NCBI RefSeq assembly: GCF_001870905.1
Contig: NZ_LNDC01000059.1
Location: 1-43,230, forward strand
From: Geitlerinema sp. PCC 9228
Lineage (GTDB): Bacteria; Cyanobacteriota; Cyanobacteriia; Cyanobacteriales; PCC-9228
Direction of reading: 5' to 3'
Length of the DNA: 43,230 nucleotides
Shown here: in pieces, positions 85 to 25,779 of the stretch
Position numbering within the stretch: position 1 is the first letter of the stretch
Layout: each line of letters starts with the position of its first letter
Notes under the pieces: generated by a model
Told to the model about the DNA's origin: nothing
Databases searched by the model: none
The model's input: only the letters and a program-made list of their open reading frames with translations
Translations under genes and position numbers: made by a program

Positions 85-1655
85 ATTCCGCCAATCCCCA
101 AACGACCGGCCACCGAAGGAGATAGCGGCAGCAGGGTAGCCAAAGCCAAAAACAACACCAAAAGCGTCAAAGCGGCGCTGGCATCGTTGGGTTCGGAAAG
201 GTCGTTTTGACAGGGACGTTCCAAATTGCGCTGCAGCAGCAAAATCAAAATGGCCCAGTACAAAGCCAAAACATTGAAAAAGGAAGCGACCCCGAGAAAC
301 AGCAAAGTAGCAACGGTGGTTCGGTTGGCAATTTTGCGTCCGTAAATAGCTTGGACAATTCTACCACCATCTAGCTGACCGGCAGGTAGCAAGTTCAACG
401 CCGTAATCACCAATCCCAACCAACCAATGGGAACCAAAGGATGAATGTCTACCACCGCCTGCTGCAACGTCGAACCCAAAGTCACCTTGGCAATGGTTCC
501 CACCAAAATCGACCCCTGGAAAAACTCGGAAGGAATTTGAAACCAACTCCCCTCCCGAGACAGAAAAAAGCCGAGAATTAGCATGGCTAGAGAAGTAACG
601 CCACCAGCCACCGGACCAGCAAACGCCACATCAAACAAAACTTGACGGCTGGGAAGCAAAGAAGTGAAGCGATTTAAAGCGCCAAAGGACCCCAATTGCC
701 ACGTGGGAATGAAAAAGGGAAAACTCATGCGGACGCCGCGACGTTTGGCGATAATTTGGTGGAAGAGTTCGTGAACGCCTAAAATCAACCACAAACCAAC
801 CGCTAGGGGCCAAACTTCGTTCAGGCGATTGGGATTTTGGAAAACATCAAACCCCATGAGAAAGCCAAAGGCTTCCACACTGGTCCCCAAAGTAGCTAGC
901 CATAAAACCGCTGCCAAAACTTTTTGACCGGTACTGAGGGGTTGGGGGTCGTTTTTGCTGGGAAGAACGATAGCCACGGGTTTGTCTTCTCGGTCGTTCA
1001 CCAGGAACAAACGATAGCGATCGCCCATCTGTTCCTGCAAGCTAGCGGACAGCTGTTGGTAGGCCGTTTCCGCATCGCTACGCAAATTTCCCCGGAAGAT
1101 AGCGCCTTCTTGGTAGGGAATGGTTTCGGTGGCAAAAAAGGTATCGATGCCAAAAAGTCCCTGGATCTCCCGCAAATCCTCGCTGGGAATGCCAGTGGGT
1201 TGTGGTTGGGAGGTAGGTTCGGCTGGCGGCGCGCGAAAACTCCCTTCATCGGGACCGGATTCGGACGTAGCGGGGGAATCCTCCGAACGCCGCCAATCGC
1301 TGGTTGGCGTTTGCTGGGGAGGTTGCGACTGCTGGCTGTTGCGCATTTGCCGAATTTGCCTTCCCAGGATGATATAAATGCCAGTACACAGGAGAAATAT
1401 TAATAAAATGGTGGCAATATTGAGCGCAATCCCAAATGCCAGCAATCCGAAAAACAGCAGCCAAGGGGCCATCAGAGTTACCGATTGCAACCAAGCCAGA
1501 ATTCCCACACGGCCGTAAGGTTGCGATCGCCGAAATCCCCAAACCAAAATACCAATGGCTGCCAGCAAAATGGCTAGTGTCGTCCAATTTTGCGTTGCAA
1601 TATCCATAAGAAATGTCCTATTCGTTTGCAATTGCAGGGCAATACTTTGCAACAA
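81..1655 (-). CDS. Site-2 protease family (M50) membrane metalloprotease
   Basis: This is a predicted intramembrane zinc protease of the cyanobacterial/chloroplast EGY-like branch of the S2P family, 524 residues. The zinc motif HELFH is at residues 295-299, and the second family motif NLLPAGQLDGG at about 421-431 supplies the third ligand. Two hydrophobic segments lie near residues 24-40 and 60-97, followed by a Q/P/S-rich linker (about 105-155) and a soluble region before the catalytic membrane core. A second start at 1607 (residue 17) is equally plausible. Such proteases cleave membrane-anchored substrates; the substrate here is unknown. The TGA stop falls within the mobile-element end at 1-84. 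Confidence 0.88.
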   Translation of the reverse strand: MLQSIALQLQTNRTFLMDIATQNWTTLAILLAAIGILVWGFRRSQPYGRVGILAWLQSVTLMAPWLLFFGLLAFGIALNIATILLIFLLCTGIYIILGRQIRQMRNSQQSQPPQQTPTSDWRRSEDSPATSESGPDEGSFRAPPAEPTSQPQPTGIPSEDLREIQGLFGIDTFFATETIPYQEGAIFRGNLRSDAETAYQQLSASLQEQMGDRYRLFLVNDREDKPVAIVLPSKNDPQPLSTGQKVLAAVLWLATLGTSVEAFGFLMGFDVFQNPNRLNEVWPLAVGLWLILGVHELFHQIIAKRRGVRMSFPFFIPTWQLGSFGALNRFTSLLPSRQVLFDVAFAGPVAGGVTSLAMLILGFFLSREGSWFQIPSEFFQGSILVGTIAKVTLGSTLQQAVVDIHPLVPIGWLGLVITALNLLPAGQLDGGRIVQAIYGRKIANRTTVATLLFLGVASFFNVLALYWAILILLLQRNLERPCQNDLSEPNDASAALTLLVLFLALATLLPLSPSVAGRLGIGGI

Positions 1656-1728
1656 GCGGGAAGCACCGCTATCGTCGGAGAAACTTTGACCGGTAAGCGA
1701 TCGTTCAATAAAAAAATCTTACCATCCA

Positions 1729-2637
1729 TTAAGTTTTGTTTTCGGCTTGCAACGCCTGCCGTAGGTGTCCTCGATGCTGTTGCAGCAGGGTTTGCGCCGT
1801 TTGTAGAGAGATGCCTTTCCAATGGCGCAGCAACGCCAGTTTCACCGAGTTGTTGCTACTGGCTAGCAACTCACCAGCTTGCGAACGGTCCAAATCCGTT
1901 AAATCCATTAAAATTCGCAAGGCGCGATCGCGGAGTTTCTCGTTGGTGGCGGCCACATCCACCATGCGATTGCCGTAAACTTTTCCCAAACGCACCATCA
2001 CCCCAGTGGATAAAATATTCAAAGCCATTTTGGTAACGGTTCCTGCTTTCAAACGAGTAGACCCAGCCACAATTTCCGGACCCACCAGCAGGCGAATGTC
2101 AATATCGGCGGGACTGCTGGCTTGTTCTGCCGGCACGCAAGTCATAAAAATGGTACTAGCGCCGGCTTGTTGCGCCGCTTGCAAGGCCCCCAACACGTAG
2201 GGAGTCGTTCCGCCAGCGGTAATCCCAGCGACCACATCCCGACCGCCGACCTTCCGTTCGTAAATAGCCGCCGCGCCGTCTTCGTAGCGGTCTTCCAAAT
2301 CTTCCGAACTGCGTACCAACGCTGCTTCGCCGCCAGCAAGAATTCCCTGGACCATCTCGGGTGGCGTACAAAAGGTCGGCGGACATTCTACCGCATCCAA
2401 AACGCCTAATCGACCGCTGGTTCCGGCCCCCACATAAAACAAACGTCCCCCTTGACAAAGGGCCTCACTAGTGATATTGATGGCATCAGCCAAGGATTCC
2501 CGCGCCTCGGCGATCGCGGCTACGGTATGGCTATCTTCGCGGACGAACAAATCCACCAACGCCAAAGGAGACAGTCGATCCAAATTCCCACTATTGGCAT
2601 TGGCTTGTTCGGTCAGCAGATATCCCCGGTCTTTCAC
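1729..2637 (-). CDS. murQ: N-acetylmuramic acid 6-phosphate etherase
   Basis: MurQ cleaves the lactyl ether of N-acetylmuramate 6-phosphate to give N-acetylglucosamine 6-phosphate, a cytoplasmic step of peptidoglycan recycling. The 302-residue protein has the SIS-domain motif YVGAGTSGRLGVLDAVE (about 68-84), with the acidic residue in DAVE, and SEDLEDRYEDG (about 111-121), both typical of the family. Length matches the family (about 300). The start is GTG at 2635-2637 and overlaps the TGA of the upstream DUF3110 gene by four bases (GTGA), so translation is probably coupled. The two genes form a minus-strand operon. Confidence 0.93.
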   Translation of the reverse strand: MKDRGYLLTEQANANSGNLDRLSPLALVDLFVREDSHTVAAIAEARESLADAINITSEALCQGGRLFYVGAGTSGRLGVLDAVECPPTFCTPPEMVQGILAGGEAALVRSSEDLEDRYEDGAAAIYERKVGGRDVVAGITAGGTTPYVLGALQAAQQAGASTIFMTCVPAEQASSPADIDIRLLVGPEIVAGSTRLKAGTVTKMALNILSTGVMVRLGKVYGNRMVDVAATNEKLRDRALRILMDLTDLDRSQAGELLASSNNSVKLALLRHWKGISLQTAQTLLQQHRGHLRQALQAENKT

Positions 2638-3059
2638 AGCAAACCCTCCAGACGGCGGCGCGCCTGTTCTAGTTCCTCGGGAGACATATCCGTTTTTTCA
2701 CGTTCCGGTGTTTCGTTTTGAGGTGACTCCGGCGACTCAGCCGACTCTGGTGATTGAGAACCCTCTTCATCCCAATCTGTCTGTTCTACATTGGCTTCCG
2801 GAGGCAAAGCCAGGGAACCTTTGGGAACCAACTCCCAGTCGCAACCACTGCTGCGACAAAATTCCTTCACTTCCTCATCGTCGATTTCTTCTACAGTAGG
2901 ATTGGGAAAGTCCTGAGCTTCCAGCATCCCTCCGTAGCGGGTCGCATCCTCCTCGGATTCAAACATCAACACCTTGTTGCGCTGGGAGTTCATATCCTTG
3001 AGGGTATGGATCCCTTCATTCTCAGTACGTGCGTTAAAGAGCAGAACATATACTCGCAT
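2634..3059 (-). CDS. DUF3110 domain protein
   Basis: This small conserved cyanobacterial/plastid-lineage protein has no assigned function. The N-terminal part (MRVYVLLFNARTENEGIHTL, then a region that reads as an alpha/beta fold) matches the DUF3110 family, which covers about residues 1-85. The remainder (about 85-141) is acidic and rich in S, P and E. I chose the ATG at 3057-3059, not an upstream in-frame ATG at 3116, because the family begins at MRVYVLL. Its stop overlaps the murQ start, so the two are co-translated. The pairing does not by itself indicate a role in wall recycling. Confidence 0.8.
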   Translation of the reverse strand: MRVYVLLFNARTENEGIHTLKDMNSQRNKVLMFESEEDATRYGGMLEAQDFPNPTVEEIDDEEVKEFCRSSGCDWELVPKGSLALPPEANVEQTDWDEEGSQSPESAESPESPQNETPEREKTDMSPEELEQARRRLEGLL

Positions 3060-3252
3060 GGTTGATGAAACTTTTGAAACCACCACTACTTCTATACAAT
3101 TTAAGCACTTGCACAAGAACCAACGGCTGATGTGGTTCCCGCGTGCTTTTTAAGTACTGCTATGGGTACTACCTCCAGTATAAACCGCAAACCGAACGAT
3201 GCGGATATCCTTTCTGTAGGCTTCTTTTGGTCTACCGCGATCGCAACCATCA

Positions 3253-6200
3253 ATGACGAATTCTCCATCTCCCGAACGAAAATCTACCTGGCTAATTTGG
3301 GTGCGCCGTACTGGCTTAGTCGCTGGTGTGGCAGTGTTTTCCGCGGCTATTGGCGGTACTTGGTGGGTGAAAACCCAACTCGCGCCATTGGTATCGAACA
3401 ATTTGTCCAATATCGTCCAACGACCGGTCAATTTAGGTTCCCTACAACAGTTTTCCCTAACCCAGTTAACCTTCGGGGAAACCACCGTACCCGCTACCGA
3501 CACCGACAGCGATCGCGCTTCTGTGGAATCAGTCGTTGTAAACTTTAACCTCTGGCAGGTCATAACCAACCGCACCCTGCCTTTGGACATTACCTTAGTC
3601 AACCCCCAAGCTTACATTGAACAACAGCAACCCGGAAAGTGGCTGCAACTAAATTTACAACTAGAAAAACCAGGGCCCATCCAACCGCAACTCCAAGCGA
3701 TCGCTGCCAAAAACGCGCGCCTCACCCTCGACCCCTACGGTAGCGAAGCCGTGGATTTCCATAAAATTCAACTGGTCACCCAGTTTGCCAACAACAACCA
3801 AAAAATTCAATTTCAAGTCAGTGGCGCTCCCATTTCCGGGGGAAATTTCGCCGCAACGGGAGAATTTCGCCAATCTCCCAACACCGCGCCGCAGCTAGAA
3901 GGCAACCTACAAAGCCAAAATTTACAGCTACCTCCCATTACCAACTTGCTGCCTTCCTCCCTACTACAAGACCGCTTGCAAGTGGTCTCGGGAACCTTGC
4001 AAACCAATATAGACATTGCCTGGAATTTCGAGAATGCCTTACCCGACCTCCAGGGAACTGCCAAGCTGCAAGCAACCACCCTCGACATCCAAAACGTTCC
4101 CCAACTGGTGACCCTCAAGCAAGCCGACCTCAGCCTGCAGCAACAGCAGGTTCGCATAGAACGCGCTACCCTCAACTACAGCAATATCCCCGTAGAAGCC
4201 AGCGGTACGGTGGATTTGGCGCAAGAACGCTACGATTTGCAAGCCAACATGGCATCGCTTCCCCTTTCTCGGGTTCTATCCGCAGCACAAGTTTCCCTTC
4301 CCATCGCGATCGCGACCCAAGTCGCAGCGGCTGTTCGTGTCACCGGTCCACTCACCAATCCCATCGTTCGCGGTCAAGTACGCACCACGCAAACCACCCA
4401 AATCTACGCCAGCAACAATCCCCAACCCAACGCTACCCCCCTCATCGACCTCGATCGCGCAAGCAGCAACTTTCAAATCGACCAAACCCAGCTGCAATTA
4501 CTGAACCTCAGTGCTTCTCCCAGGATCGGCGGCGAAATTTTCGGCGGCGGTCGCATCGATTTCAGCGATCGCATAGCCTTAAACCTAGATCTGGCTCTGC
4601 AAAACCTACCCTTAGAACCATTTCTGATACGCGGTTTGCAGGAAGGATCCCTTCCCTTTCGTTTGGGAAGACTCAACGCCACCACCCAAATCCGCGGCTG
4701 GGCCACCAATCCCCAAGTACAAACCCAATGGCGCTTGCGCCGTTCCAGCATTGAAGGCAGCGGTGAACTCACCTACGCCAACCAACGCCTCGATATCCGC
4801 AATACTAAGTTCCAACTAGCTGGTGGCAGCATAGATTTAAATTCTAAAATTACCCTCAATGACCCCACCGCTAACGCCATTCAAGCCAGCGTTAGCATCG
4901 CCAATATCCAACTCGAAAAACTCGGTATCCCCCAAGCGGCAGGATTTTCCGGTCAGTTTCAGCTAGCCAGTCCCCTGACCCCACAAGGTGCCAGTGACTT
5001 GCAAGCCAGCGGCAGCGCCAAAGTACAATTGTCCCCACAGGAAACCGTTGCCGTGGAAAACTTTACCCTGGAATCGGGCAACTTTGCCGCCACTGTCGCC
5101 AGTCGCAAACTCACTTTAAAAACCATAAATCCCAACTTGCAGGGGACTCTCACAAGTTCTCTTGATGTGGCTGGTTCCCTCAGCAATCTTTCCGCAAATG
5201 GCATTCAAGCCAACGGCCAGCTTCAATTTTCCCGCGTTCCCATCGCCACCAGTTTTCTGGATAGTTTCAACATTCCGAACTTTCGTCCCCAAGCTTTAGA
5301 ACCGATTTTCGCCAGTCCGACAAATGTATCCCTCCGCTGGGATGGCCAAACGTTGCAGCTCCCCTCTATAGCATCGGAAGCCGGTATCCGTGCCAATGGC
5401 AGCCTGGATGTCGCTTTAGCAGACCTACCGCAAATTACCGGATACGACTTGAATGTAGATGTCCAAGAATACCCACTGGCGAAGCTTCCCCTGGCTTTTC
5501 CCGATATCCAAATTGCCGATCGAATTCGTCAGGATTTACAAGGCAATGCCACGTTTAGCGGTCGTTTGGTTTCCGATCGCTTGCAGGGGATCCCCGAAAT
5601 TACTGGCGATTTGACCCTCAACCAATTCGGTGCCTATCGCTTGGCATTTGAACGCCGGTTGACAGGTCCGATTTCCGTCACCCCGGAAGGAATTCAAGTA
5701 GCATTATCAGGAGAATCAGACGCAATTCAAGTGGCGTTAAATCAGAAATATTTGCCCACTCGTATCAACATCCAACAGGAAAAACTCGATATAACCGGCC
5801 AATGCATGCCTCCGCCAGCGGAAAAGCCTTCTCCATCCCAACAAGTTGATGCATCCGATGCGCCTATATCTGAGAATTGCCCTTGGTTTCAATTGCAAGT
5901 ACAAGAATTTCCCTTGGCAGGATGGAGCGATCGCGTTTTGGGAGGAACTTTATTTGCCGACCTCAACATCGACTGGCAGCAATTGCAAGTAGCCGGTTCC
6001 CTGACAGTCAACCAACCCGCGATCGCCAGTCCCCTCGGTCGCATCGAAGCACAAACCTTTGCCTCCCAATTTCGCTACAGCGGCAACACCATTTCCGTCA
6101 CTGACACCAAATTGGTCCAAGGCAACAGCCAGTATGCTTTTTCCGGCGGAGTCATTTTAGGGAAAAACCCCCGTTTTCGCGGCGATTTGGAAGTGGTAGA

Positions 6201-18387: not shown

Positions 18388-18699
18388 ATGCCAATCGCGG
18401 TAGGAATGATAGAAACCTTGGGCTTCCCAGCCGTTGTGGAAGCCGCAGATGCTATGGTCAAAGCAGCCCGAGTAACGCTCGTCGGGTACGAAAAAATTGG
18501 AACCGGTCGTGTCACCGTTAGCGTTCGCGGCGATGTTTCGGAAGTTCAAGCGTCGGTGGCAGCAGGCGTTGAGGGTGTCAAACGAGTCAATGGTGGTGAA
18601 GTATTGTCCACTCACATCATTGCCCGCCCTCACGAAAACCTCGAATACGTCTTGCCCATTCGTTATACAGAAGAAGTAGAACAGTTCCGAACATACTGA
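18388..18699 (+). CDS. ccmK2: Carboxysome shell protein CcmK2
   Basis: CcmK2 is a BMC-H shell protein whose hexamers tile the facets of the beta-carboxysome. The 103-residue length fits CcmK2. The single BMC domain fills nearly the whole protein, with the family start [23 protein letters not shown], the pore-region KIGTGRVTV and the ending [14 protein letters not shown]. It is nearly identical to the next gene over the first 92 residues. The K2/K1 names follow lengths and order in other beta-cyanobacteria (103, then 111-113 residues). A strong ribosome binding site lies upstream. It begins the plus-strand carboxysome-RuBisCO series. Confidence 0.95.
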
Positions 18700-18723
18700 C
18701 CGGTTGTTTAGAGAGTTATAAAA

Positions 18724-18832
18724 GCTGAAAATGGGCCATAGTTGGTGGGAAATTGCGGTGTTTGTCAGATTCCCCAAATCAAGGGGAAAACGCCAGCACC
18801 AAATTTCCCATCGACACATCCCCGTTTTCAGC
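18724..18832 (+). promoter_or_regulatory. Nested hairpin between ccmK2 and ccmK1
   Basis: Four stems are stacked concentrically in one 109-nt segment. They are GCTGAAAA (18724) with TTTTCAGC (18825), TGGGAAATT (18746) with AATTTCCCA (18802), GGTGTTT (18757) with AAACGCC (18788, one G-U), and TTCCCC (18770) with GGGGAA (18783). It lies wholly between the two stop/start codons. A structure this size could attenuate transcription or protect the ccmK2 mRNA and so set the K2:K1 ratio. No T-run follows, so simple termination is unlikely. Confidence 0.65.
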
Positions 18833-18876
18833 GCTTCCAGCAGCCAACCACGTAGTAGGAACCAGGAGAAAAACCC

Positions 18877-19218
18877 ATGGCAATTGCAGTCGGAATGATT
18901 GAAACCCTAGGCTTTCCCGCTGTGGTCGAAGCCGCAGATGCAATGGTGAAAGCCGCCCGCGTCACCTTAGTAGGATACGAAAAAATCGGTACCGGTCGCG
19001 TTACCGTCATCGTTCGGGGTGACGTTTCGGAAGTTCAAGCTTCGGTATCAGCAGGTGTTGAAGGGGTCAAAAGAGTGAAAGGTGGTCAAGTCCTTTCCAC
19101 ACATATTATTGCCCGTCCCCATGAAAATCTGGAATACGTGTTACCAATTCGCTATACAGAAGAAGTAGAACAGTTTCGCGAAAGCATCGATACCCCTCGT
19201 CCCCTAGCCAGACAGTAA
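18877..19218 (+). CDS. ccmK1: Carboxysome shell protein CcmK1
   Basis: This is a second BMC-H hexameric shell protein of 113 residues, differing from CcmK2 at only a few positions until the C-terminal tail ([12 protein letters not shown]). The tail length distinguishes CcmK1 from CcmK2 in other beta-cyanobacteria. The pore motif KIGTGRVTV is unchanged. The ribosome binding site AGGAG precedes the ATG. In most beta-cyanobacteria ccmL follows directly; here a 393-base non-coding gap follows instead. Confidence 0.95.
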
Positions 19219-19611
19219 CCTTCCGTAGGACATAGAATAAGATTAGAAATGATGTGGTCTGTTTGGGCGCGGTGCTTGTAGGTCAAAAATTGGCTGCTGG
19301 CATTGTGCTTCCCCAGTTAAGCAAAACCAACTTCCCAAAGCAAGCGATTGGGAGGCAAAGCACGCTCGCGAACGAGCACCCGTCAGCATATTTCCCCAAT
19401 CTTGTTCGCCTAGTTTGGTTCCCTGTTCTTGTCTTCCATCGCAAAAAAACTGGCAAGAGAAGACATCCATCAAGCACTTGCTAGTTGCAATGGTCCCAGG
19501 GACCAGCGCCTTCGACACCATCAAAGGCGCGCCATCTAGGCCAGGCTTCTGCCTGGGTGTAGCCATTGGCAAGTGCTCGGTATAACTTGTTGAATTCAGG
19601 AGGAATTCCCC
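19219..19611 (+). other. Gap between ccmK1 and ccmM, no ccmL
   Basis: ccmL (about 100 codons, expected here) is not present in any frame, and I find no recognisable remnant. The stretch has a small hairpin GCTCG-CGAA-CGAGC near 19369, the pair GATTGGG/CCCAATC flanking it, and the larger structure at 19473-19577. The ccmM ribosome binding site (CAGGAGGAAT) is at its end. Confidence 0.7.
19473..19577 (+). ncRNA. Cloverleaf-like structured RNA upstream of ccmM
   Basis: The outer stem AGCACTTGC (19473-19481) pairs with GCAAGTGCT (19569-19577) and is extended by CAAT/ATTG after a 6-nt bulge. Inside are three independent hairpins: GGTCCC-A-GGGACC (19492-19504), GCGCCTT...AAGGCGC (19506-19530) and CCAGGC-TTCT-GCCTGG (19541-19556). 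This multi-branch fold ends about 35 bases before the ccmM ATG. It does not read as a tRNA: there is no T-loop consensus or 7-bp acceptor pattern. It could be a cis-regulatory leader or the folded end of a small mobile element. The class is unknown. Confidence 0.5.
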
Positions 19612-20345
19612 ATGGTAGTCCGCAGTGTAGCGGCTCCTCCGACACCTTGGTCGAAGAATTTAGCCGAACCGCAAATTGACGAGACGGCGTACGTCCATTC
19701 CTTTTCCAACATCATCGGCGACGTACGAGTGGGGGGGAACGTCCTCGTTGCACCTGGAACCTCCATTCGCGCGGATGAAGGAACGCCGTTTGCCATTGGT
19801 GACAGCACCAATATTCAAGACGGCGTGGTCATCCATGGTTTGGAAAAAGGTCGGGTTGTAGGCGACGACGGTCAGGAATATTCCGTCTGGATCGGTCCCA
19901 ATTCCTGCATTACCCATATGAGCCTGATTCACGGACCTGCCTACATCGGCAGCGAGTGTTTCATCGGCTTTCGCTCCACCGTATTTAACGCCCGGGTTGG
20001 ATCGGGGTCCATCGTCATGATGCATGCCCTCATCCAAGACGTGGAAATTCCGGCAGGGAAATACATTCCCTCTGGAAGCATTATTACCAACCAACAGCAG
20101 GCCGATCGCTTGCCCGAGGTGCAAGAAGCCGATCGCGATTTTGCTTCCCACGTCGTTCAAATTAACGAAGCCCTGCGCAGCGGTTACTTCTGTGCGGCGG
20201 ACGAAGCTTGCCTGGTTTCCGTACGCAACGAAGCCAACCAATCCAACGGTAAAAACTACGCTTCTAACAATGGCGGTAGCCCCAACCGCGGCTCATCGAG
20301 TTCCTATAAGTCCATGAGAACCAGTTTAGACCCCGAAGTTCAAAA

Positions 20346-20481
20346 ACAAGTACGCAATCTGCTCTCCCAAGGATACCGCATCGGTACCGAACATGCGGAC
20401 AAGCGTCGTTTCCGGACCAGCTCCTGGCGCAGCTGCCCGCAAATTACTGCCCAGCGCGAAGATGAAGTGTTTGCCGAACTG
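20346..20481 (+). repeat. SSUL-coding DNA repeat 1 in ccmM
   Basis: These 136 bases are repeated at 20711-20846 with one base difference. They encode most of an SSUL domain ([19 protein letters not shown] onward). Identity this high, including third positions, indicates a recent duplication or gene conversion. Confidence 0.9.
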
Positions 20482-20710
20482 AAGCTTGCTTGGCCGACCA
20501 TGCCGGCGAGTACGTCCGTTTGATCGGTATTGACCCCACCGCCAAACGCCGGGTGCTGGAAACCATTATCCAACGTCCCGACGGCCAGGCACCGCAAACT
20601 TCGAGCCGCCATTCCTCTGGCAGTAGCTACAACGGTGGCGCTCGCAGCACCCAGGGTTCGAGTTCCCCAGGTACGGCAACCAGCAGCCGCTTGAGTCCCG
20701 AAGTGCAGCA

Positions 20711-20846
20711 ACAAGTACGCAATCTGCTCTCCCAAGGATACCGCATCGGTACCGAACATGCAGACAAGCGTCGTTTCCGGACCAGCTCCTGGCGCAGCTG
20801 CCCGCAAATTACTGCCCAGCGCGAAGATGAAGTGTTTGCCGAACTG
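20711..20846 (+). repeat. SSUL-coding DNA repeat 2 in ccmM
   Basis: This is the near-identical copy of 20346-20481. The third SSUL repeat (about 21105-21330) is clearly more diverged at DNA level. A frameshift lies at the 3' edge of each of the two identical copies. Confidence 0.9.
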
Positions 20847-21533
20847 CTTGTTTGGCCGACCATGCCGGCGAGTACGTCCGTTTGCTAGGCATTGACCCCA
20901 CCGCCAAACGCCGGGTATTGGAAACGATTATTCAGCGTCCCGACGACGAAGCCCCCCAATCGGGACAGCGCCAAGCGGCTGCGGGACAACAACGTCAAAC
21001 TACCACAACCAACGGTTATTCGGGCAACAGCTACGGGAGCAGTGCTTCCAGCTACAGCGGGAATAGCGCGGCAACCGGCAAGTTGGATGGCGAAACCCGC
21101 GAACAAGTACGCAATTTGCTGTTGCAAGGTTATCGCATTGGTGCCGAACATGCAGACAAGCGCCGTTTCCGTACCAGTTCCTGGCGCAGTTGCGGTCCCA
21201 TTGAAGGCAAGCGGGAGTCGGAGGTAATTGCCAACTTAGAAGCCTGTTTGTCTGAATATGCCGGCGAGTACGTGCGCTTGCTAGGCATCGACCCCACAGC
21301 CAAACGCCGGGTATCGGAAACGATTATTCAACGCCCTGAGTAGTTTTGGTTGAGTGGTTTGGGAACCCCGCTTCCCTGTCTTCGAGGAAAGGCAAAGCGG
21401 GAAGCTAGGGATACGCAGCTGCAGGGTTGACTCTCAAGGCTGCTGTCCGTGTTTGCCTTTTCTCTTTTTCCCCGTTTTCCTTTCCTGGCTTTGCCAGGTT
21501 GCAAGCAGCCAGTCATTTCATACCACCCTTTCC

Positions 21534-22523
21534 ATGTATTTGCCACCTTTACAAACATTATCGGAGGGGTTACAAACGCGTGCGGCACCAGCTCATGTTA
21601 GCGGTGACGTGTCGATTCATCCCAATGCCGCGATCGCGCCGGGCGTTATTTTACAGGCAGCGCCCAACAGTCGTATTGTGGTTGCTGCTGGGGCTTGTAT
21701 CGGCATGGGTGCCATTATTGAAGCGCACGAGGGGACCATTGAAATCCAACAGGGTGCGGTTTTGGGAGCTGGCGTTTTGGCGATCGGACGCGGCACCATT
21801 GGGGAATACGCTTGTGTGGGTGCCGCTACCACGATTTGGAATACCAGCGTTGCGGCTATGGAGGCGATCGCTGCGGGGTCAATTCTCGGCGATCGCTCCC
21901 GTTCGGTGGATTTATCGGACGATGCAGTGCCCGAAAAGGCTTCCTCGACCGCCAGTTCCCCAACTTCCAATTCCGATGAGTCTTGCGATCGCACCCCCTC
22001 TCCATCGCCACCATCTTCAGCTGCCGATGTCACCCAGGCAAGCGGCTACCACCATACCGATAATGGTACTACCCCATCAGGTGCCGCACCACCTGCCGAC
22101 CGAAACGGCTATCCCGATAGTTCCCCAGCACAAGCAGGTGCAACCACACCACCTACCGAGTTCCATGGTAATTCCAATGGTGGTGTCCGTGCTGCCCACG
22201 GGCAACCGGATTTTGCTTCGCCATCCCCAGATGCCTCGTTTTCAGCGTCCGAGAGCAAGAACGGTCAAACGGCTGAAAACCAAGCTGGTAGCTCGCTCGA
22301 TGGTGTGGCCACTTCCCAATCGCAAAATGGTGGTACGAGTGGTGCGGCCACTGGTGCTTCTATGTCGCCGCACATGCCGAGTCCCAACTACGGTCAGGCT
22401 TATATCCATCAGTTACTCGTTACCTTGTTTCCCCACCGCCATCCCAGCAACTACACGCCAGCAAGCAACAACGATTCCCATACGGAAAGCGAAGACGATG
22501 CTGGCACCGCGGAAAATTTTTAA
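21534..22523 (+). CDS. ccmN: Carboxysome adaptor protein CcmN
   Basis: CcmN bridges CcmM in the carboxysome core to the CcmK shell. The 329-residue protein starts with MYLPPLQTLSEG (ATG at 21534); upstream in-frame codons do not resemble the family. Residues about 20-125 are hexapeptide repeats of a left-handed beta-helix. A long S/P/T/N/G-rich linker runs from about 130 to 280. A C-terminal amphipathic encapsulation peptide follows (YGQAYIHQLLVTLFPHRHP). Unusually, the peptide is not terminal: about 28 polar, acidic residues follow it, ending DDAGTAENF. Family length is usually shorter, and the linker accounts for most of the excess. It follows ccmM by 190 bases. Confidence 0.88.
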   Translation: MYLPPLQTLSEGLQTRAAPAHVSGDVSIHPNAAIAPGVILQAAPNSRIVVAAGACIGMGAIIEAHEGTIEIQQGAVLGAGVLAIGRGTIGEYACVGAATTIWNTSVAAMEAIAAGSILGDRSRSVDLSDDAVPEKASSTASSPTSNSDESCDRTPSPSPPSSAADVTQASGYHHTDNGTTPSGAAPPADRNGYPDSSPAQAGATTPPTEFHGNSNGGVRAAHGQPDFASPSPDASFSASESKNGQTAENQAGSSLDGVATSQSQNGGTSGAATGASMSPHMPSPNYGQAYIHQLLVTLFPHRHPSNYTPASNNDSHTESEDDAGTAENF

Positions 22524-23451: not shown

Positions 23452-24870
23452 ATGGTACAAGCCCAATCAAAAAGCGGATACGAAGCTGGGGTAAAGGATT
23501 ACCGCCTCACGTACTACACGCCCGACTATACCCCCAAAGAAACCGATATCTTAGCTGCCTTCCGGATGACTCCCCAACCGGGTGTACCCGCTGAAGAAGC
23601 TGGTGCTGCAGTAGCAGCGGAATCCTCCACCGGTACCTGGACCACCGTGTGGACGGACTTGTTGACCGACCTCGATCGCTACCAAGGTCGCTGCTACCAC
23701 ATCGAACCAGTTTCCGGGGAAGACAACCAATACTTCTGCTTCGTTGCCTATCCCCTGGACCTGTTTGAAGAAGGGTCCGTCACCAATATGCTGACCTCCA
23801 TCGTCGGGAACGTATTCGGTTTTAAAGCCCTACGTGCCCTGCGTTTGGAAGATCTTCGCATCCCCGTTGCCTACCTGAAAACCTTCCAGGGACCTCCCCA
23901 CGGCATCACCGTCGAGCGGGACAAACTGAACAAATACGGTCGTCCCCTGCTCGGCTGTACCATTAAGCCCAAACTGGGTCTGTCCGCCAAAAACTACGGT
24001 CGCGCCGTATACGAAGGCTTGCGCGGTGGCTTAGACTTCACCAAAGACGACGAAAACATTAACTCCCAGCCCTTCATGCGTTGGCGCGATCGCTACTCCT
24101 TCGTCGCCGAAGCCATCCACAAAGCCCAAGCCGAAACCGGCGAAATCAAAGGGCACTACCTCAACGTCACCGCCCCCACCTGTGAGGAAATGCTGAAGCG
24201 GGCCGAATATGCCAAAGAATTGGGCATGCCCATCATCATGCACGACTACCTCACCGGTGGCTTCACCGCCAACACCACCCTCGCCAAATGGTGCCGCGAC
24301 AACGGCTTGCTGCTGCACATTCACCGCGCCATGCACGCCGTGATCGACCGTCAGAAAAACCACGGCATGCACTTCCGGGTCCTCGCCAAGTGCTTGCGCA
24401 TGTCCGGCGGCGACCACCTACACGCCGGTACCGTGGTTGGTAAGCTAGAAGGCGAACGCGGTATCACCATGGGCTTTGTGGACCTGATGCGCGAAGACCA
24501 CATCGAAGAAGACCGTTCCCGCGGCATCTTCTTCACCCAAGACTGGGCTTCCATGGCTGGCGTCATACCCGTTGCTTCCGGCGGTATTCACGTATGGCAC
24601 ATGCCCGCCCTGCTGGATATCTTCGGCGACGATGCCTGCTTGCAATTTGGCGGCGGTACCTTGGGACACCCCTGGGGCAATGCACCCGGTGCTACAGCCA
24701 ACCGTGTGGCTTTGGAAGCTTGCGTACAAGCGCGTAACGAAGGTCGCAACCTCATGCGCGAAGGCAACGAAATCATCAAAGAAGCCGCCCGCTGGAGTCC
24801 CGAACTGCAAGCGGCTTGCGAACTGTGGAAAGAAATCAAATTCGAATACGAAGCTGTGGATACGCTTTAA
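23452..24870 (+). CDS. rbcL: RuBisCO large subunit, Form IB
   Basis: RbcL is the catalytic subunit of ribulose-1,5-bisphosphate carboxylase/oxygenase, and fixes CO2 in the carboxysome. The 472-residue protein has the loop [14 protein letters not shown] with the carbamylated lysine and its metal-binding Asp and Glu, KPKLGLS with the catalytic lysine, [12 protein letters not shown], loop 6 (GTVVGKLEG) and [12 protein letters not shown]. Sequence and the plant-like N-terminus ([19 protein letters not shown]) place it in Form IB, as expected beside beta-carboxysome genes. It is followed by rbcX and rbcS in the same orientation. Confidence 0.98.
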
Positions 24871-24979
24871 TCGGAAGAAATCAAAGCGACCGGCTTGGGG
24901 ATGTCAGATTTTGGGTTTTCGATACAATAGGTATTTAAAACCTGAAATCGACTATTCCCAAGGCTGGGAAAGGGGGATC

Positions 24980-25414
24980 GTGGATCCGAAACAAGTGGCC
25001 AAAAACACGGCACGGGTTTTGCAAAATTACCTCACCTACCAAGCACTGCGCACGGTCATCGAACAGCTGTCAGAAACCAACCCACCCATGGCCTTGTGGT
25101 TGCAGCAATACTCTGGCGGCGTGTTCCAAGATGGGGAGGCTTACCTACAAAACCTGCTGCAAGAGCGCAAAGATTTGGTGTTGCGAATTTTGGCCGTGCG
25201 CGAAGATCTGGCCAATTCGGTGGTAGACTTTTTGCCAGAGATGGTGCGTACTGGTATCCAGCAATCCAATATGGAAACGCGCCGCCAGTTGTTAGAACGC
25301 ATGACCTCATCCCAGCCTGCATCCGAAGCGCGAACTTCCGAACGTAGCCATCCCGAATTGACAGACGAGGAATCTTCTCCTGAGGAAGGAGGTTCCAGCG
25401 AAGAACCATCGTAA
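24980..25414 (+). CDS. rbcX: RuBisCO assembly chaperone RbcX
   Basis: RbcX dimers bind the C-terminal [12 protein letters not shown]-type peptide of RbcL and promote assembly of the RbcL8 core. The 144-residue protein matches the family from [26 protein letters not shown] through [26 protein letters not shown]. The start is GTG at 24980, preceded by AAAGGGGG; an ATG start would require reading from inside rbcL in another frame. The last ~30 residues are a polar acidic tail ([16 protein letters not shown]), longer than the core family needs. It lies 109 bases after rbcL and 29 before rbcS. Confidence 0.92.
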
Positions 25415-25443
25415 ATTTCAGCGTAGATTTTCGGAGTCCATCG

Positions 25444-25779
25444 ATGAAAACTTTACCAAAAGAGCGACGTTACGAGACTTTATCTTACTTACCCAATCTC
25501 ACCGACCAACAAATTGCCCGTCAGGTTCAGTATATGCTGGATCAAGGGTTTATTCCCGCCATTGAGTTTAACGAAGATTCGGCTGCCGAAACCCATTATT
25601 GGACCCTGTGGAAGTTGCCCCTGTTCCAAGCATCTTCCCCGCAAGACGTACTTGATGAAGTACGGGAGTGCCGTCAAGAATATCCCAATTGCTTCATCCG
25701 GGTAGTAGGATTTGACAACATTCGTCAGTGTCAAATGATTAGTTTCATCGTTTACAAACCCAACCAAAGCCGCTTCTAG
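25444..25779 (+). CDS. rbcS: RuBisCO small subunit
   Basis: RbcS caps the RbcL8 core to form the L8S8 holoenzyme. The 111-residue protein has the family start [20 protein letters not shown], the central [10 protein letters not shown] and [18 protein letters not shown], and the ending MISFIVYKP. Length is typical of cyanobacterial RbcS. It is the last gene of the rbcL-rbcX-rbcS operon and is followed by a strong hairpin terminator. Confidence 0.97.

Follow-up and report, generated by a model that had tools for sequence, protein, structure and literature searches.

Both frameshifts in the ccmM gene of the cyanobacterial draft genome studied here are almost certainly errors of a short-read assembly whose joins had overlaps no longer than 84 nt. 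Each lesion starts at the base directly following an exact 84-nt run that is shared by the first and the second SSUL repeat, and 84 nt is also the length at which exact repeats stop in the sampled part of this draft. The same signature of a small indel at the end of such a run is present elsewhere in the assembly, including a CRISPR array. In the living cell, ccmM is most likely a single intact gene with three SSUL modules.

The ccmM gene and its lesions as deposited

The window, which is the whole stretch of 43,230 nt that was analysed, represents contig 59 of a 223-contig, 4.8-Mb draft. Here, the gene order is ccmK, ccmK, ccmM, ccmN-like, rbcL, an rbcX-like ORF and rbcS (Table 1). An earlier note on this DNA had described two frameshifts at the same codon position of SSUL repeats 1 and 2. 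These are present in the deposited sequence, and each of them shifts the frame as claimed. In the ORF listing of the window, ccmM consists of three pieces at 19612-20523 (303 aa), 20490-20888 and 20852-21343. The first frame comprises the gamma-carbonic-anhydrase (gamma-CA)-like domain and two thirds of SSUL1, the second the remainder of SSUL1 and the larger part of SSUL2, and the third what is left of SSUL2 and the whole of SSUL3 up to the stop at 21343. In comparison to repeat 3, which reads NLEACL, one nucleotide is gone from repeat 1 and four nucleotides are gone from repeat 2, in both cases directly 3' of GAACTG.

Table 1. Features of the carboxysome region, in positions of the window.
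Feature	Position	Strand	Basis
Two ccmK genes (18388-18699 and 18877-19218)	18388..19218	+	BMC domain
ccmM, gamma-carbonic-anhydrase-like domain and three SSUL repeats, in three frames as deposited	19612..21343	+	ORFs; Pfam Hexapep, RuBisCO_small
Exact 84-nt run within SSUL1, repeated at 20763-20846 and as long as the exact-repeat ceiling of the assembly	20398..20481	+	Repeat search
SSUL1 junction, 1 nt short compared with repeat 3; putative faulty join	20481..20482	+	Repeat alignment
Exact 84-nt run within SSUL2	20763..20846	+	Repeat search
SSUL2 junction, 4 nt short compared with repeat 3; putative faulty join	20846..20847	+	Repeat alignment
SSUL3, uninterrupted	21083..21340	+	PF00101 match, E 2.1e-20
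ccmN-like gene	21535..22523	+	Place after ccmM; no Pfam match above threshold
rbcL (23452-24870), rbcX-like ORF and rbcS (25444-25779)	23452..25779	+	ORFs, Pfam

The M58-type CcmM of beta-carboxysomes, for example that of Synechococcus elongatus PCC 7942, and the products of 109 related loci share with this gene a gamma-CA-like domain followed by linker-joined SSUL modules. Furthermore, the known beta-carboxysome ccmM loci and this one have in common an operon that also contains ccmK, ccmN and the rubisco genes. The N-terminal hexapeptide domain is present (PF00132 match), and the C-terminal part holds three tandem SSUL modules, of which the lesions split two, where members of the family have 3-5 such modules (PF00101). 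The identity to the ccmM genes of the relatives amounts to 54-77%, mostly 64-73%. In contrast to known CcmM, which is read in one continuous frame, the deposited frame is broken twice, probably as an assembly artefact. Since the break is attributed to assembly, it is not counted as a departure from the CcmM family. A second, intact copy of ccmM was not found in the same genome, and the gene is single copy.

The gamma-CA domain and the SSULs lie in one open frame in 107 of the 109 related ccmM loci. The comparison of the site in relatives, which the earlier note had proposed as a check, revealed none in which the frame is broken at the same place. Breaks elsewhere in the SSUL repeats occur in two drafts, one in the fourth SSUL (L036 of G029, 1480-3448) and one with scrambled repeats (L085 of the MAG QS_4_48_99, 520-2327), and SSUL arrays seem to be prone to misassembly. 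In a third draft, G009, the gamma-CA match is divided between two frames. Among the relatives found, none was a second assembly from this species, genus or family.

A ceiling of 84 nt for exact repeats

The positions of the lesions follow from simple arithmetic. The last bases that distinguish the two repeats lie at 20397 and 20762, and 84 nt further on are 20481 and 20846, exactly where the lesions occur. Because both are equally far from the last distinguishing base, they are best read as two outcomes of one technical limit. The argument that two independent hits at one spot would point to biology fails for the same reason.

Exact repeats were counted in 121 stretches of the draft with a total of 1.67 Mb, corresponding to about 35% of the genome. 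They cluster at 81-84 nt and then stop, with 53 repeats of exactly 84 nt, one of 85 nt and one of 87 nt, and within these 1.67 Mb none exceeds 87 nt. The finished relatives G015 and G032, on the other hand, have ten exact repeats above 87 nt apiece in 200 kb each, with maxima of 447 and 1,320 nt. A repeat ceiling at the overlap length is found in the sampled part of this draft and is absent from the finished relatives.

A similar picture is obtained at the contig ends, where 76-84 nt recur at the end of another contig at an offset of 0-7 nt, mostly 0-4 nt (0 nt, 128 cases; 1 nt, 96; 2 nt, 39; 3 nt, 15; 4 nt, 5). The first 84 bases of the window are one such shared end. This sharing, together with the chewed ends, suggests that joins were limited by an overlap of 84 nt, behind which a k-mer of 85 would stand. 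Gaps of N are present at short repeats, as between the duplicated 61-nt flanks at 1391-1407 of contig 5, and show that short near-repeats were left unresolved by the assembly.

From these observations a course of events can be proposed for ccmM. In the real gene, the identity of SSUL1 and SSUL2 would run a little beyond 84 nt. A contig that reached the repeat could then grow by no more than 84 nt beyond the last distinguishing base, and this point is the site of each lesion. There, the assembler or a gap-filling step would have attached the contig to the following piece, from whose end one base was missing in the case of SSUL1 and four bases in the case of SSUL2. Such losses of 1 and 4 nt agree with the chewing seen where other contigs end. 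The ceiling, the position of the lesions relative to it, the chewed ends and the further sites with this signature are observed; the exact software step and an unbroken gene in the organism are inferred.

Selection and homogenisation of the SSUL repeats

The codon differences between SSUL1 and SSUL2 have a ratio of synonymous to other changes of 3:1 before the lesion (segment A) and of 8:3 after it (segment B). Since they are mostly synonymous on both sides, selection has acted on the protein in its intact reading.

Exact repeats between SSUL modules, 92-288 nt in length, are found in other, unbroken ccmM genes (288, 192, 161, 134 and 92 nt in L020, L041, L053, L024 and L021, respectively). 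Recent gene conversion among the modules is suggested by these repeats. As such repeats occur in other intact genes, an identity of more than 84 nt between two SSULs would be natural here as well. Gene conversion, which the earlier note had listed as an option, thus probably explains the near-identity of SSUL1 and SSUL2, and is not needed for the lesions.

The same signature elsewhere in the assembly

A small indel at the right end was observed for six of the seven re-alignable interior runs that reach 84 nt or more, ccmM being among the six, in comparison to 24 of 154 runs of 40-83 nt (Fisher p = 1.6e-4, a test that counts pairs and includes seven long runs). The exception among the long runs is the pair of contig 14 and contig 120, where the sequence goes on by plain substitution.

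Contig 98 (L197, 16527-18544) carries a CRISPR array whose 37-nt repeat GCTTCAATGGAGCCGCGAGTGAGAGTCGCGGTGAGAC is present in 26 perfect copies. Two irregular gaps in this array hold two deviant repeat copies. One of them has a 1-nt insertion at its start, and the other is 2 nt short precisely where an 84-nt exact run ends. Within this run one spacer occurs twice, and the shortened repeat comes after the first copy of it. Therefore, the order and the count of the spacers are unreliable. The repeat lacking 2 nt is the clearest control, and it is not readable as programmed frameshifting.

Exact runs of 84-85 nt followed by indels of 2-5 nt were also seen on contig 105 (L203, 123/6406), contig 93 (L192, 18413/18604) and again contig 98 (L197, 12669/12870). 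These are probable assembly errors like those of ccmM.

Small indels at repeat boundaries are known from short-read de Bruijn and gap-filled assemblies. The present case resembles them in the position of the lesion at the maximum overlap length, in the bases lost at the joins and in the occurrence of a few further sites. Compared with those known indels nothing is distinctive here, and a well-known gene happens to be struck. Assembly errors in near-identical repeats had been one of the options of the earlier note, and this option is strongly supported by the 84-nt ceiling, the position of the lesions, the chewed ends and the recurrence.

Alternative explanations

Real mutations would mean that one or both SSULs carry true frameshifts, one of which was perhaps spread by gene conversion and followed by the loss of a codon. 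The near-identity of repeats 1 and 2 and the homogenisation of SSULs seen in other ccmM genes would fit this, and so would the 3 nt that repeat 2 loses in addition to repeat 1, as expected for a shared 1-nt lesion plus codon loss. However, both lesions would then have to hit the 84-nt limit of the assembly by chance, and elsewhere in the gene the changes are mostly synonymous. The outcome would be a shortened CcmM in which no full SSUL follows the gamma-CA domain, although ccmM is single copy and rbcLS, ccmK and ccmN are all in place. Real mutations are therefore considered very unlikely. Pseudogenisation was rejected as well, since the mostly synonymous substitutions between the repeats speak against it and the match with the 84-nt limit is left unexplained.

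Programmed -1 frameshifting, also raised by the earlier note, would make both lesions real and would yield functional CcmM forms with a variable number of SSULs. Both sites do lie at the same codon position, and a title cited in PMC5853843 reports programmed frameshifting for the alpha-carboxysome, which counts in its favor. Nevertheless, a slippery heptamer of the form X XXY YYZ is absent from both sites (20440-20530 and 20800-20895), a shift at the second site would still cost one residue, and the arrangement is conserved in none of the relatives. Furthermore, the indel signature recurs in the CRISPR array and at further sites outside repeated protein domains. Searches of titles and abstracts in the literature revealed no report of frameshifting in CcmM. 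Taken together, programmed frameshifting is not supported and appears extremely improbable.

A ccmL gene apart from the main locus

The spacer between ccmK and ccmM (19219-19611 of the window) contains no CcmL match. The ccmL gene was observed on its own on contig 168 (L177, 11034-11333, minus strand), approximately 11 kb from the contig start, and its neighbours are unrelated, e.g. sugar-kinase-like and methyltransferase-like ORFs. In each of the 80 named relatives, the sequence fetched around ccmM includes a ccmL match. According to a survey of 227 genomes, ccmL is located exclusively in the main carboxysome locus (PMC5853843). Within the sampled sequence, no repeat of at least 40 nt is present close to ccmL on contig 168 or within the spacer of the window. 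Because of this, an assembly artefact is a less likely explanation for the place of ccmL.

Implications

Frameshifts of a draft genome that fall into near-identical internal repeats can be traced to the assembler, if the maximum exact-repeat length of the genome is compared with the distance of the lesion from the last distinguishing base. Similar breaks may be hidden in drafts of this kind, both in CRISPR arrays and in further genes that contain repeats. The frameshifts of ccmM have no significance as biology; their use is that of a method. Worth more than these frameshifts is the side observation of a ccmL gene apart from the main carboxysome locus.
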